A stretch of DNA of 64,000 bases, taken from contig NZ_CP159307.1 in assembly GCF_040448695.1 (NCBI RefSeq), positions 1,116,001-1,180,000 of the forward strand, written 5' to 3'. Of this stretch, positions 450 through 5,943 are shown in pieces. A program made the position numbers and the translations under genes. The notes under the pieces were generated by a model. The model did not search any database and was not told the DNA's origin. It worked only from the letters and a program-made list of their open reading frames with translations. The DNA is from Dehalogenimonas sp. 4OHTPN. Its GTDB lineage: Bacteria; Chloroflexota; Dehalococcoidia; Dehalococcoidales; Dehalococcoidaceae. Numbering within the stretch: the first letter of the stretch is position 1; each line of letters begins with the position of its first letter.

Positions 450-3400
450 TCAAATTCGGCGTTTAACGTCACAAAGGGTTTGTGCGACTGCGGTGGCGAG
501 TGCTGCGGGCTCAAAGGGTTTCACCAGACTGGGTAGACGGTGCGTCTCCAGGAACATTTTGACATCTTCACCCAGGGTATCGCCGGTGATAATTACGATA
601 CGTCCGGCCATCTCCGGCCGACGGTCAATAATTTCGGCGTAAAGCGCCATGCCGCTGGTCCCGGGCAATCGAAGATCCATGACGATAATGTCGTAGTCTT
701 TTTTGCTTAGTAGAATTAGTGCTTGCGCGGCAGAAGCCGCTGTGTCGACGTGCCGGTCTTCCCCGGAAAGAGATTCAACCGCAAGGTTGCGTATGCACTC
801 CTCGTCGTCTATCACCAAGATAACGGCCGCTGATTGATGTTCTAGGTTATTGACACTTGAGTCACGATTTTCGGCTGCCGAGACGGAAATCTGAACAATC
901 GGCAACAGGATGGTGAAAGCAGCCCCGCATCTGGGAGACGATGCCACCTCCAGAGTGCCGCCGTGTTCCTCAACGATTGAACGGGAAAGTGCTAACCCCA
1001 GACCGGTGCCTTCGCCGGGATTTTTGGTGGTGAAGAACGGCTGGAAAATCTTAGTTATAGTTACGTTGTCGATTCCCGGTCCGGAGTCGGCGAAAATCAA
1101 CCTGAGATATCTCGCCTCCAAAGCGGCGGTGATGGTGAGTTTCCCCGGGTTGCCAGTATGCTTGATGGCATATTCGGCATTGACTATGAGATTCAGGATA
1201 ACCTGCTGCATCTGGCCCGGATCAACGATTATCCACGGTAAATTTTCAGAGTACTTCTTAACAACCTCGATGCCGGAGGTCTTCAGCACGTATGCCCTGA
1301 GTTCGAGAGTATTATCTATCAACTCAGTAATATCCACGCGTGATTTCAACGGCTTGGTTTGGTGGGCAAAGGTCAGCATTCTTTTGACGATTTCGGCCAC
1401 TCTTCTGGAGCCATCAGCGATAACTTTCAAGTCGTCAGCGACTTCCGGCGCCAGATCGCTACGGGCAAGCAACAACTCCGAAAAACCAAGGACACCGGTG
1501 AGGGGATTGTTGATCTCATGCGCAATTCCGGCGGCCATTTCGCCAACGGCAGCCAAGCGGCTGGATAACTCCGCTTTTTCTTTTAACCGCTGTTGTTCAG
1601 CTTCGGCCTTTTTAACGGCAGTTATATCGCGGGCGATATGGACATATCTTCCGCTAGATTTACCGCCAATTTTAATTGGAGTGATGTTGACCTGATAGGT
1701 ATTATCACCCTGAACGATCTCATCACCCAGACCACACCGATTCCGGTCGCCGAGGCCAGGGCAAAAGCCGGGCAAGACACAGGTATCGTGCATTATTTGA
1801 TAGCATTTTTTACCTACTGCCTCGGCCGGAAGCATTCCGGTTTTGTCTGCCATAGAACGGTTGACGCGAATAATGTTATGGTCCTTGTCCATAATACAAA
1901 TCAGGTCTGGTATGGAGTCGAAGGTGCTTTCCCACTCCTGTTTCGCAATTAAGATTGCCTGATCGTTCTTGCGGCGTTCAAAGATATCACGTTCAGCGAT
2001 CAAAAGCCCCCGCAGGGATACTGCAGCCACCGATGTAAGCGAACGGATGAGGAAATGATCGCTGTTCGAGAACTCCTGGCGGCTGGCTTTACCCGAAAGG
2101 AACAAAACGCCAACGGTCTTGCCTGCAGCCGTGAGTGGAATCATATAAGCAACATCTTTTGAGCCCACAACGTTAGGGTATTCAGTCGAAGGCGTTCTCC
2201 GTTTGACAAAATCCATCAATTCCAATTCAAACGATCTATCGGCGTAAATACCTCGCGCGGCGGCGAACACAAAACTTGTTTCATCAGTCGCTACAAATAG
2301 GCAGGCGCCTGACAGGTTCATGGCCGTCATCGGGGCGTCAATGATCAATGAGGAAGCCACCTCAACGCTAGCAGTTGCGCTGAGCGATGCGCTCAAGCTT
2401 TGAATGATTTGCTGGTAGTCATGGCGGTCTTTGTAGAAGAATTTGTCAACCAATGCTTCTGTGGCGCTTCTGGCTGGACCTAAAAGGAGAACCGCTATAG
2501 CTGAAAGGAATAATGCCAGGATGAATTGCTGAGCGAAACCCGGAGCGACTCCACTTGATAATACCAATGCAAAGACACCGGCAAGGACCGCGGCCATCAA
2601 TAGAGTGATAAGGCCGTACACTACTCCTCTTCGAACTACGACATCAATATTCATCAATTGGCGCGCGATTACGGCATAACCAAGAGACAATGGTATGAAC
2701 GACAGGAAGGCTACCGTAATATTCGACTGTAAAAATACACCGTCATCCTGAACCCCGGGGAATACACTGAAAATTAAAAAAGGAAGCAAAGCAGCCATGC
2801 ATCCCAAAAGGATGATGACCATTTGGTGCCTTGTTCGCGAATCCGCCGCTCTTAATAGATTGAATACCACGACACCTATAACACCCAAGAAACCGACACC
2901 GTATCCGATCAGCCTGAAGGTCCGAAAATCCGGGAGAGGCTGCCCATTCGACTGGCCAATGAACGGATATGCAATCACAATCAACGCCGGCAATACATAA
3001 ACCAGGTATTGGTGGGGCCTGTGTCTCAACCAGGCGCGCTCCTCGGGGAGAATCAAAAAGAAATGGAGCAACAGCCAAGGACCGATGGTGGACGCAATAA
3101 CGGTGATATGCAAAGCCAAAGGGGCCAGACGATCTGAAGCCAGATTGGAGCTGAGAGCCAACCCGAACACCAAGCTGCAAGCCAATAACAGAACCGACGC
3201 CTCGTTTTTCGGATTACGGAGATAAACGTAAATTCCGACAACCCAAAACGCCAGGCAGGGAAGAAGCCACATAATGAGGTCTATTGTCGCGCTCGAAGCA
3301 GGTTGAGTCAGAGATGAATCCGCATCAAGAATTGTGCCGTTAGGATTTACCACTGTAATTTGTCGAACTACTCGGATCCAATCCGACTCTTTAAAAGATG

Positions 3401-3638
3401 ACAGGTATTGATCAGCTGGCAGTCCATCGATAACTAGTGGAATATCTCCTGGAGCGATACCTAGTTCACTGCCAATCCCAAATGGATCGACGCTCTCAAC
3501 AACCCATTGCTCTTTATCATTTTTAAGGGAAATGACCTGACCCCCTAAAACGAGTCCAGTTTGATAATATACTGGACCAAAAGAAAGGGGGAGAATATGC
3601 CGAGGAAGTCCTTCACTCCGGAGCAGATCATCAACCAT
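450..3638 (-). CDS. ComP-like sensor hybrid histidine kinase, 5' end replaced by IS sequence
   Basis: Only about residues 36-1062 (bases 450-3532) are native. The ATG at 3638 and the first 35 or so residues come from antisense reading of the insertion sequence. Order: a PDZ-like segment (about 36-110, VVESVDPFGIGSELGIAPGD), eight or nine hydrophobic helices (about 115-400), a GAF-like region (about 415-560), PAS (about 570-690), HisKA with H707 in HEINNPL, HATPase (DSGPGID, GTGLGLALS) and a C-terminal receiver with D988 in VMDLRLPG. Extracytoplasmic PDZ followed by many helices is the sensor layout of Bacillus ComP, and KNDKEQWVVESV lines up with the KNDKSQFMIEEI stretch of B. subtilis ComP. 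The kinase half is NtrB-like, unlike the HisKA_3 of ComP. It follows the comX/comQ-like genes on the same strand. The first transmembrane helix, the native start and the promoter are lost, so expression is doubtful. Confidence 0.8.
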   Translation of the reverse strand: MVDDLLRSEGLPRHILPLSFGPVYYQTGLVLGGQVISLKNDKEQWVVESVDPFGIGSELGIAPGDIPLVIDGLPADQYLSSFKESDWIRVVRQITVVNPNGTILDADSSLTQPASSATIDLIMWLLPCLAFWVVGIYVYLRNPKNEASVLLLACSLVFGLALSSNLASDRLAPLALHITVIASTIGPWLLLHFFLILPEERAWLRHRPHQYLVYVLPALIVIAYPFIGQSNGQPLPDFRTFRLIGYGVGFLGVIGVVVFNLLRAADSRTRHQMVIILLGCMAALLPFLIFSVFPGVQDDGVFLQSNITVAFLSFIPLSLGYAVIARQLMNIDVVVRRGVVYGLITLLMAAVLAGVFALVLSSGVAPGFAQQFILALFLSAIAVLLLGPARSATEALVDKFFYKDRHDYQQIIQSLSASLSATASVEVASSLIIDAPMTAMNLSGACLFVATDETSFVFAAARGIYADRSFELELMDFVKRRTPSTEYPNVVGSKDVAYMIPLTAAGKTVGVLFLSGKASRQEFSNSDHFLIRSLTSVAAVSLRGLLIAERDIFERRKNDQAILIAKQEWESTFDSIPDLICIMDKDHNIIRVNRSMADKTGMLPAEAVGKKCYQIMHDTCVLPGFCPGLGDRNRCGLGDEIVQGDNTYQVNITPIKIGGKSSGRYVHIARDITAVKKAEAEQQRLKEKAELSSRLAAVGEMAAGIAHEINNPLTGVLGFSELLLARSDLAPEVADDLKVIADGSRRVAEIVKRMLTFAHQTKPLKSRVDITELIDNTLELRAYVLKTSGIEVVKKYSENLPWIIVDPGQMQQVILNLIVNAEYAIKHTGNPGKLTITAALEARYLRLIFADSGPGIDNVTITKIFQPFFTTKNPGEGTGLGLALSRSIVEEHGGTLEVASSPRCGAAFTILLPIVQISVSAAENRDSSVNNLEHQSAAVILVIDDEECIRNLAVESLSGEDRHVDTAASAAQALILLSKKDYDIIVMDLRLPGTSGMALYAEIIDRRPEMAGRIVIITGDTLGEDVKMFLETHRLPSLVKPFEPAALATAVAQTLCDVKRRI
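3533..3544 (+). repeat. IS left terminal inverted repeat (outer 12 bp)
   Basis: TGACCTGACCCC matches the outer 12 bases of the right end with one mismatch. Weaker similarity continues inward for about 15 bases. Confidence 0.85.
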
Positions 3639-3875
3639 CTCCGGGAGGCCGAGATCCTCATCAGCCAGGGCACCAGTCTGGCCGTCGTGCTTAAGAAGAT
3701 CGGGGTCAGCAACTGCACCTACTACCGCTGGCGTCAGGAATACGGCGGCATGAAAGTCGAGCAGGCCAAACGCCTCAAGGCATTGGAGCAGGAAAACGCC
3801 AGACTGAAGAAGCTGGTAGCCGACATCACCCTGGACAATGCCATCCTCAAAGAAGCCGCCCGGGGAAACTTCTAA
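3597..3875 (+). CDS. IS3-family transposase OrfA
   Basis: 93 residues from ATG 3597 (MPRKSFTPEQIINHLREAE). The N-terminal helix-turn-helix (SLAVVLKKIGVSNCTYYRWRQ) would bind the IS ends. It is followed by a leucine-zipper-like stretch (RLKALEQENARLKKLVADI) that mediates OrfA/OrfAB oligomerisation. An upstream in-frame ATT at 3561 was rejected because the MPRK start is typical of the family. The frame ends at TAA 3873-3875, one codon after a G GGA AAC slippery heptamer, so part of the ribosomes should continue into OrfB. Confidence 0.92.
   Translation: MPRKSFTPEQIINHLREAEILISQGTSLAVVLKKIGVSNCTYYRWRQEYGGMKVEQAKRLKALEQENARLKKLVADITLDNAILKEAARGNF
3863..3869 (+). other. Programmed -1 frameshift slippery site of the IS
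   Basis: The heptamer G GGA AAC is in phase with OrfA (CGG GGA AAC TTC TAA). It fits the X XXY YYZ rule. After a -1 slip the next residues are GKLLSPHKRRQVITKIQD, running without a stop into OrfB, and this junction resembles OrfAB fusions of other IS3 elements. No experimental proof is available from sequence alone. Confidence 0.75.
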
Positions 3876-3949
3876 GCCCGCACAAGAGACGTCAGGTTAT
3901 CACCAAGATTCAGGACAAGCTGAAGGTCTCCCAGAGGCGGGCATGCCAG

Positions 3950-4711
3950 GTGCTCGGCCAGGCCAGGGCTACCCAGCGCCGTGATAAGGAGCCACCCGAT
4001 GAGGAAAAGCGCCTGGTGGCCGATGTCACTGCACTGGCCACCAAGTTTGGCCGCTACGGTTACCGGCGGATCACGGCACTACTCCGTGAAAGAGGCTGGC
4101 GGGTGAACCACAAGAGGGTAGAGAGGATCTGGCGCATGGAAGGACTCAAGGTGCCCCAGAAGCAACCTAAAAGAGGCAGGCTATGGCTTAATGACGGCTC
4201 GTGCATCCGGCTCAGGCCGGAGCATAAGGATCACGTCTGGAGCTATGACTTTGTCAGTGCCAGGACATCAGACGGCCGGGCTTTTCGGATGCTCAATATC
4301 ATCGATGAATACACCCGGGAATGCCTGGCCATCCTGGTCAAGAGACGGATCACGTCAGAGGATGTCATCGACCAGCTCTTCAATCTGTTCATCTTAAGGG
4401 GCATACCCGAGCACCTGAGGTCGGACAACGGACCGGAATTCACCGCCAGATCGATCAGGAAATGGCTGGCAGACATTGGCATCAAAACGCTGTTTATCGA
4501 GCCTGGGTCACCCTGGGAGAACGGCTACATCGAGTCATTCAACGGCAAGCTCAGGGATGAACTACTGAACCGGGAGATCTTCACCACGCTTTTTGAGGCT
4601 GAAGTATTGATTGCCGACTGGAGGAGGCAGTACAATCAGGTCCGGCCTCACAGCTCACTTGGTTATCTGCCACCGGCACCTGAGGCTATTATGGCTGCCA
4701 AAACTACTTAA
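3950..4711 (+). CDS. IS3-family transposase OrfB (DDE integrase domain)
   Basis: The GTG at 3950 is only the first in-frame start; the -1 frame is open from the slippery site at 3863 and encodes KVSQRRACQVLGQARATQRR, the usual OrfB beginning. The product is therefore probably an OrfAB fusion spanning 3597-4711. It has an HTH_21-like part (GYRRITALLRERGWRVNHKRVERIW) and then an rve catalytic core with the DDE triad: D in WSYDF, D in RSDNGPEF and E in NGYIESFNGKLRDE. It ends in the typical NQVRPHSSLGY tail. It catalyses excision and integration of this IS. No catalytic residue is missing. Confidence 0.94.
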   Translation: MLGQARATQRRDKEPPDEEKRLVADVTALATKFGRYGYRRITALLRERGWRVNHKRVERIWRMEGLKVPQKQPKRGRLWLNDGSCIRLRPEHKDHVWSYDFVSARTSDGRAFRMLNIIDEYTRECLAILVKRRITSEDVIDQLFNLFILRGIPEHLRSDNGPEFTARSIRKWLADIGIKTLFIEPGSPWENGYIESFNGKLRDELLNREIFTTLFEAEVLIADWRRQYNQVRPHSSLGYLPPAPEAIMAAKTT

Positions 4712-4723
4712 CAACTGGTACCA

Positions 4724-5341
4724 TCATTGGGGGCAGGTCACTCCTGGATCATTTGTGGAAAGAACGGCGCCAATATGGCATGCACATTGGATTTGAGACG
4801 CTGATGTTTTTTGGATATGAGAGATATATGCGGTCTCATCAAAACAAGAACTCAACGAACCGCATAAATCTTGATGTTGCCCGATGGAAGATTGAATAAA
4901 ATATCTGGTTAAAATTTCTAGGGCAGAATGAAATATCTGGTTAGAAACAAGATTATTCATTCGAGCGAAAGCAGCGTATGCGAGTAATATCATAGTCGAG
5001 CCGATATTCATCCGGATGGATTTGCTAAGGCCAGTAAAACCGGTTGGGATATGGTCGTCATCTTCAAGATCGTCGAATACATCGGCCGCTGTCAGCATGA
5101 ACTGAATTGCGGCAGCGAAAGGTAAAGTATGTGTCCATTCGCCGTTAATGCTCTGGGCAACATACAAAGGCAGCAATGGCCAGTGATTATTGTCTGACGA
5201 TGTTCCTAAAACTCTCCCTTCAACGGCCAGCGGGGCTCTAATATGAGAGACCAATTCGGTGTCATTAGAATAAGGAGCTAGAATTGCTTCTAGCTCCTTA
5301 TTGAGGGCTATACTTTTAATAACTAAGTCGCCCCGGTCCAT
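4724..5341 (-). pseudogene. comQ: ComQ-like isoprenyl transferase, 3' end removed by the IS
   Basis: ComQ is a cytosolic class 1 isoprenoid enzyme that prenylates a Trp of the ComX pre-pheromone. Counting from ATG 5341, the first Asp-rich motif DVFDDLEDDD lies at 87-96, like SSDIMDDLEDED in B. subtilis ComQ. GQHQD is at 154-158, matching the GQHDD site, and the following EtAYIshIqKTSASqIqcAchIGAvLsT tracks the ComQ helix IRLKCGSLIALANVAGVLLAT. After residue 200 the frame enters the IS (VTCPQ, stop). Intact ComQ is about 300 residues, so roughly the last third is missing and activity is doubtful. A GTG at 5368 overlapping the peptide gene is an alternative start that would allow translational coupling. 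It lies just downstream of the comX-like gene on the same strand. Confidence 0.82.
4729..4740 (-). repeat. IS right terminal inverted repeat (outer 12 bp)
   Basis: On the minus strand this reads TGACCTGCCCCC, matching the left end with one mismatch. The truncated comQ-like gene runs into it and stops 16 bases inside the IS. Confidence 0.85.
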
Positions 5342-5358
5342 AATTGAAAGATACCTTG

Positions 5359-5568
5359 TTAAAACCACCCACCCATGGGTCCAATTTGCGACTGAAGAGA
5401 GACACCATCAGCGGTGACTAAGCCCGTACGCCCTTGCAAGGAAAGGACCGCCTTTTTATCAACCGGGTTAAGTTCCAGTTTGGCGACATACGCTTCGGGA
5501 TTGGCTTCGAAATCCTTGCGGGCGGACTCATCTCTAAATATGGTCTGGACTAAGTCGGCCAAGTTCAT
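5359..5568 (-). CDS. ComX-like pre-pheromone peptide candidate
   Basis: 69 residues, MNLADLVQTIFRDES to QSQIGPMGGWF, with Trp68 next to last. ComX precursors are 50-75 residues, share little sequence and carry a conserved Trp near the C-terminus that ComQ prenylates. Size, Trp position and adjacency to a ComQ homologue fit. The N-terminal part (DFEANPEAYVAKLELNPVDKKAV) resembles a helical leader seen in some RiPP precursors, which is an alternative or complementary reading. It has a strong RBS (GGAGG, about 8 bases before ATG 5568) and a near-consensus promoter. The gene ends inside the possible GTG start of the transferase gene. Assignment rests on context and the C-terminus, not on strong similarity. 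Confidence 0.72.
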   Translation of the reverse strand: MNLADLVQTIFRDESARKDFEANPEAYVAKLELNPVDKKAVLSLQGRTGLVTADGVSLQSQIGPMGGWF

Positions 5569-5600
5569 AACCTTTCCTCCTTAATTAATTTTAGTTACGG

Positions 5601-5629
5601 ATTATAAACTCAGAATATCGACACGTCAA
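5601..5629 (-). promoter_or_regulatory. Sigma-70-type promoter of the comX/comQ-like genes
   Basis: On the minus strand: TTGACG at 5629-5624, a 17-base spacer, and TATAAT at 5606-5601. The predicted start near 5594 leaves a leader of about 25 bases with GGAGGAAAGG before the ATG at 5568. Confidence 0.75.
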
Positions 5630-5757
5630 TAGTTTTCAGACATATTGGTAATATTTATATGCAGTAACTGAAGGCATATTCGAAACGTCTCAATCATAAC
5701 TCTGTTAATGAAGGCTGACAATAGTACTATCGTCATGGGGGGATCGAAGAGGAAATC

Positions 5758-5834
5758 TGGTCGGGGTGGACGGATTTGAACCGTCGACCACCTGAACCCC
5801 ATTCAGGTGCGCTACCAGGCTGCGCTACACCCCG
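5758..5834 (-). tRNA. tRNA-Pro (anticodon GGG)
   Basis: A complete cloverleaf on the minus strand: acceptor CGGGGTG/CACCCCG, D stem GCGC/GCGC, anticodon stem CCTGA/TCAGG with loop ATGGGGT (anticodon GGG), T stem GACGG/CCGTC with loop TTCAAAT, discriminator A and an encoded CCA end. It separates the quorum-sensing-like locus from def. Confidence 0.95.
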
Positions 5835-5943
5835 ATTTGGAAAGCGCTAGAATGTTATCATAGACATCTGGGTGTCGCAAGCCGCGTTGCCAGCCAAACA
5901 TGAACCATATATAATAATCTTACATAACACTTGAGCGAAACGA

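Follow-up and report, generated by a model that had tools for sequence, protein, structure and literature searches.

X, a 69-residue peptide encoded in the window (the whole 64,000-nt stretch of DNA that was analysed, positions 1116001-1180000 of a complete 1.75-Mb single-contig genome, G000), is likely the precursor of a signal. With its two neighbours it would form a signalling unit of Dehalococcoidia, X-Q-P, which is related to ComQ/ComX/ComP and in which X would be prenylated by Q and sensed by P. In the window genome, this unit is broken by an insertion sequence (IS). The initial annotation had also read X as a pheromone precursor, with a tail Trp and a ComQ-type neighbour. Both of these observations stand, and the reading becomes more than a guess because the unit contains a ComP-related receptor, P, which that annotation had omitted. 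The features of the locus are collected in Table 1.

Table 1. Coordinates of the X-Q-P unit, the insertion sequence and the locus boundary in the window.
Feature	Position	Strand	Basis
X, 69-aa peptide precursor, C-terminal GPMGGWF	5359..5568	-	ORF
X leader, predicted helical, residues about 1-50, LigA/NHLP/SonA-like	5419..5568	-	sub-threshold profiles and AlphaFold2 model
X tail, residues 63-69, GPMGGWF	5362..5382	-	Trp invariant in alignments
Trp68 codon, proposed prenylation site	5365-5367	-	Trp invariance, 18/18 peptides
X ribosome-binding site, AAGGAGG	5576..5582	-	sequence; invariant in four congeners
X promoter, sigma-70-type, TTGACG-17-TATAAT	5601..5629	-	11/12 match
Q remnant, N-terminal ~208 of 333 residues, ComQ-type prenyltransferase	4741..5368	-	
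P remnant, ComP-related membrane sensor with PAS, HisKA, HATPase and receiver	450..3532	-	
IS3-type insertion sequence, 1208 bp, ends TGACCTG(A/C)CCCC	3533..4740	.	three identical copies
IS orfA, HTH_Tnp_1	3597-3875	+	
IS orfB, HTH_21 and rve	3950-4711	+	
tRNA-Pro(ggg), locus boundary marker, upstream of X	5758..5834	-	

The peptide gene X and its homologues

The ORF of X (5359-5568, minus strand) translates to MNLADLVQTIFRDESARKDFEANPEAYVAKLELNPVDKKAVLSLQGRTGLVTADGVSLQSQIGPMGGWF. The strong promoter and ribosome-binding site originally ascribed to it were borne out. The best promoter within 3400-5900 is that of X (5629-5601, 11/12), and TTGAC, TATAAT, and AAGGAGG are unchanged across four congeneric genomes, while the surrounding upstream DNA has diverged. 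Relative to the nearest homologue (G007), 9 codons of X carry synonymous and 4 non-synonymous changes, none of them within codons 59-69. Homologues were found in 11 of 101 related genomes, including the window genome, three congeners (94%, 58%, and 54% identity) and seven members of other families in the same order (30-36%). Judged from these homologues in congeners and in the same order, X is more than a chance ORF. The X profile also matched sequences from other classes of Chloroflexota (E 1e-3 to 1e-6); these matches covered mostly the leader only, often within longer frames, and were not counted.

X is followed by Q and then P on one strand in every X-bearing genome where the contig continues, and the same order recurs in further loci of GTDB genomes from other families of the class. 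X and P co-occur in nine shared genomes, with 11 positives each among the 101 (Fisher p 1e-9). Of the four exceptions, the X-only genomes G085 and G096 and the P-only genome G093 are contig ends; the fourth is G047, in which a P-type receptor (L190:3492-5927) lies without X or Q nearby, possibly as an orphan or eavesdropping receptor. Weaker P-domain matches in G901 and G1163 likewise have neither X nor Q nearby. X, Q, and P are present in the congeners G003, G004, and G007 and absent from G001, G002, G005, and G006, a patchiness within one genus that suggests loss or gain. The window genome holds no second copy of Q or X.

A tail Trp in a single ORF is uninformative, since a Trp falls within the last 8 residues in 38 of the window's 296 stop-to-stop frames of 60-120 aa; it is the conservation that counts. 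Each of the 18 X-type peptides examined has a Trp among its last six residues, at the penultimate position in 14, exactly at the C-terminus in one (the L058 peptide, ...QPMGGW) and elsewhere in the last six in three. Only one other Trp occurs in the 1,143 residues of these peptides. The Trp is the sole invariant residue of the variable tail; several leader positions are also invariant. The tail Trp that ComQXPA requires within 5-10 residues of the precursor C-terminus was found in 18/18. The homologue alignment and neighbourhood survey proposed with the initial annotation therefore turned out in its favour, as the Trp is kept with varying flanking residues and each X adjoins a ComQ-type gene as far as the contig extends. 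In G1159, a peptide ending GSLPWV (L208:2590-2865) directly precedes a Q-like gene (QxxDD) plus a P match, and its leader is not recognised by the X profile.

The AlphaFold2 model of the window X contains four main helices (residues 3-12, 14-22, 24-30, and 35-47; pLDDT about 75), in agreement with the helical leader that had been proposed, and residues 63-69 are disordered (pLDDT 66 for the peptide model). The few structural matches of the leader model include the LigA-like domain of DesB (VIA Z 4.8, rmsd 2.3 over 52) and the borosin precursor SonA (VIA Z 4.8, rmsd 2.1 over 49 residues), although Z values such as 4.8 can arise by chance between helical bundles and the Foldseek E for the borosin-type leader was 2.9. 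The SonA leader bundle itself resembles domains capping dioxygenases, according to its authors (PMC8429565). In single-sequence scans, Pfam LigA matched 11/11 X members, all below cut-off; NCBIfam NF038399 (Os1348-type NHLP) matched 10/11 and TIGR03793 (nitrile-hydratase-type leader) 4/11, also below cut-off. The leader profile aligned with PalX at an hhalign E of 7e-5, over 25 columns only. The leader thus resembles helical LigA/NHLP/SonA-type RiPP leaders, with scores that are no proof of homology; the RiPP-like character claimed for it is favoured by profiles and predicted fold and falls short of proof.

No significant relation to the ComX family was detected by hhalign against 16 ComX (E 0.017), and Pfam ComX (PF05952) at E<=1 matched none of the 11 X members. 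A search of the window genome with PF05952 gave no match, but the control gave none either, so this search is uninformative. The X profile found nothing meaningful in B. spizizenii and B. haynesii (E 0.4). By these comparisons the leader is not demonstrably ComX-like, as the initial annotation had held.

The sensor P

The N-terminal PDZ-plus-transmembrane domain of P aligned with that of ComP over 336 columns (hhalign prob 99.6, E 2.1e-23), and the control alignment of the P sensor with PalP gave an E of 0.076 over 6 columns. On this profile comparison, the sensor of P is homologous to that of ComP. A class-wide search found the domain in 20/393 genomes, the weaker ones often being partial. 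The output part differs from that of ComP. P consists of PAS-HisKA-HATPase-receiver in the genus and in G044 and of HisKA-HATPase with or without GAF in others; its kinase type is HisKA (PF00512), with or without receiver, or is replaced by HD_5, and is not HisKA_3 (PF07730), which the ComP control scan yields. In two loci (L058:6946-9357 and L059:6840-9077), the P beside X and Q ends in GAF-HD_5 with the motif HHExxxGxGYP. The predicted HD-GYP-type output suggests a direct link from peptide to cyclic-di-GMP.

No LuxR-type ComA adjoins the congener loci. Regulators with an N-terminal excisionase-type HTH_17 and a C-terminal receiver (L017:5828-6430, L016:526-1095, and L190:2797-3363) were observed next to the locus in two genomes, G034 and G096, and adjacent to P, on its upstream side, in G047. 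They are candidate response regulators, analogous to ComA.

The homology of the P sensor bears on what the product of X and Q might be for. X and Q could yield a prenylated RiPP with a chief role other than signalling, for instance a membrane-active lipopeptide, with P sensing the product or stress for self-regulation. The X leader is indeed nearer to RiPP leaders (NHLP/Os1348, SonA) than to ComX, and prenylated Trp peptides can be membrane-active (PMC13290415). We consider this unlikely, as none of the loci inspected shows an evident gene for immunity or dedicated export, and the sensor that co-occurs with X is a specific relative of the pheromone receptor ComP.

The insertion sequence in the window genome

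Alignment with the sister genome G007 (92% DNA identity) showed homology up to 3534 that resumes from 4740, and about 480 bp of G007 are absent at the IS site. The missing stretch codes for the final third of Q, with the second Asp-motif region, and for the first 36-39 residues of P. The remaining Q ORF overlaps X by 10 bp, runs to 4724 and stops after 214 residues; it keeps the first Asp-rich motif, DVFDDLEDDD, and lacks the C-terminal 125 or so residues with QxxND. The P remnant has lost the first transmembrane segment, and its frame now opens inside the IS (ORF 450-3638, 1,062 aa, histidine kinase). No target-site duplication was seen in the IS flanks, as would be expected if a deletion accompanied the insertion or two copies recombined. 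Two other full-length copies lie at genome positions 1427597-1428804 and 1443165-1444372. Since all three are 100% identical, the break looks recent and the IS recently mobile. Between the window and G007, the synonymous/non-synonymous codon changes number 28/22 in the Q fragment and 159/61 in P.

With both Q and P truncated, the local circuit is probably dead and the unit non-functional in this strain, whereas X-Q-P loci are intact in sister genomes, such as G007. The ComQ-type neighbour probably does not modify the window X; X is here probably an orphan precursor, made yet unmodified. That the locus is still active, with the IS-opened P frame and the Q fragment keeping some function, is improbable. 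The promoter and ribosome-binding site of X are intact, the kinase part of P is in frame, and ComP proteins lacking the N-terminal transmembrane part have been recorded (PMC4008528), but the losses from Q and from the membrane part of P described above argue against it.

The enzyme Q and comparison with known systems

The Q remnant ORF matches polyprenyl synthetase (PF00348, E 2e-8). A maximum-likelihood tree of 59 rows joined Q and ComQ in a single clade (100/100), outside which fell 24 canonical synthases from Chloroflexota, Bacillus, and Paenibacillaceae, with the proviso that the ComQ rows were gathered with a pattern built on Q's own motif and that long branches are present. The clade was unchanged on removing the very long PalQ branch. 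A grouping of ComQ with Bacillus IspA was rejected (p-AU 0.00012), and one of Q with Chloroflexota synthases without ComQ was disfavoured (p 0.02). DxFDDxEDxD, GQ, KS, and QxxND are invariant in the full-length Q and ComQ sequences of the tree; the canonical counterpart of QxxND is QxxDD. A Q profile score was rejected as proof of this kinship; canonical Chloroflexota synthases (157-177 bits) outscore ComQ (87-111), so the kinship rests on the tree and the common motif. By these two lines, Q is a homologue of ComQ. Two further proteins were noted in passing. One, of G522 in class Bacilli (L172:5124-5840), is ComQ-like with DDLQD and QIKNDIKD and is sister to Bacillus ComQ; the other, of G417 (L176:4217-5281), is polyprenyl-synthase-like with QxxND, yet groups with canonical enzymes and has no X adjoining.

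The PDB sequences that Q matched were all prenyl synthases, apart from the Trp farnesyltransferase Ord1, and the AlphaFold2 model predicted for a Q (pLDDT 89) matched both at similar scores. In trans-IDS-like peptide prenyltransferases, the second-motif region is repurposed for Trp recognition, with a key Gln, according to a 2026 review (PMC13290415). Two further, canonical polyprenyl synthases are encoded elsewhere in the window genome and can, by their sequences, serve as donor source for Q. It is highly improbable that Q is an ordinary polyprenyl diphosphate synthase with X as a small protein partner or regulator and the C-terminal Trp as a structural residue: the Pfam match and the nearest PDB folds, prenyl diphosphate synthases, would fit, but Q groups with ComQ, its second motif has Asn for the first Asp, the Trp is in a tail predicted to be disordered, and the genome already has two canonical synthases.

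Returning to X as the precursor of a prenylated signal, we infer the following course for the intact relatives, from prenylation and its donor length to cleavage, export, binding, output, and signalling. Q would bind the helical leader of X and prenylate the conserved near-C-terminal Trp, with a prenyl diphosphate as donor. A short C-terminal lipopeptide would then be cut from X, exported and sensed by the PDZ-plus-multi-transmembrane domain of P, and P would pass it on to its own histidine kinase/receiver output or, in some relatives, to an HD-GYP domain. In the window genome, the IS3-type element has taken the place of the 3' portion of Q and the 5' terminus of P, which would leave X an orphan.

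If the intact loci work, they would offer a directly testable signalling system in a phylum without any of such kind, a second enzyme lineage that prenylates Trp close to a peptide C-terminus, and one pheromone sensor domain coupled to both kinase and HD-GYP outputs. The Dehalococcoidia are organohalide respirers, and a search of the open-licence literature found no peptide quorum sensing in Dehalococcoidia and, for quorum sensing in Dehalogenimonas/Dehalococcoidia generally, just passing mentions; an earlier report elsewhere is possible. The IS break here and the absence of the locus in other congeners would point to signal loss, or patchy gain, inside a genus. More broadly, it seems fairly probable that Chloroflexota hold an unrecognised branch of Trp-prenylated signalling, combining a ComQ-related enzyme, a ComP-related sensor and a LigA/SonA-like RiPP leader, in which the sensor is joined to HisKA kinases or, in some lineages, to HD-GYP (cyclic-di-GMP) and the common origin of ComQ and Q predates or crosses the phylum boundary.

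In the census of Dogsa et al. (PMC4008528), comQXPA-like loci occurred only in Firmicutes, and a later survey reported the kinase-regulator pair alone in Chloroflexi (PMC8895600). From its sequences, X-Q-P looks like a ComQXPA relative outside Firmicutes, in Chloroflexota. In common with the Bacillus ComQ-ComX-ComP-ComA system (PMC4008528), it has an enzyme of the ComQ clade with QxxND, a homologous PDZ-plus-multi-transmembrane sensor, a short precursor (68-76 aa) with a near-C-terminal Trp, and tightly packed genes on one strand. A ComQ-type enzyme lies beside the precursor, broken in the window and intact in G007. The unit differs in gene order (X-Q-P here, Q-X-P in Bacillus), in a leader that is not detectably ComX, in the HisKA of P, often with its own receiver, or HD-GYP output in place of HisKA_3, and in that no LuxR-type ComA adjoins it, the HTH_17-receiver proteins of G034, G096, and G047 notwithstanding.

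The combination of a RiPP leader with Trp prenylation had been put forward as a possible new precursor family, but as a concept it is already present in PalX-PalQ-PalP of Paenibacillus alvei (PMC10853753), which has a RiPP-type leader, as X may have, and shares with X-Q-P a C-terminal Trp and an adjoining prenyltransferase and histidine kinase. The peptide ends are also alike (PMGTW, KPMGSW, and KPAGAWF in Pal; GPMGGWF and QPMGGW in X). PalX/PalQ-type units were observed in many Bacilli genomes (L116-L145), where the W of some peptide ends is followed by one or two residues (GPWRS, AGAWF). The enzyme and the sensor are not detectably related to Q and P. PalQ lies far from Q (hhalign E 0.037, no hmmsearch match, separate in the tree) and has DDxxD as its second motif instead of QxxND, and the PalP sensor is unrelated to that of P (E 0.076). 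P. alvei PalQ reportedly requires a terminal Trp (PMC10853753), whereas X mostly has one residue after it. With the borosin SonA (PMC8429565) and the LigA/DesB domains, the likeness lies in the predicted fold of the X leader; borosins have an alpha-N-methyltransferase partner, and none is evident among the ORFs beside X, where the neighbours were read by eye.
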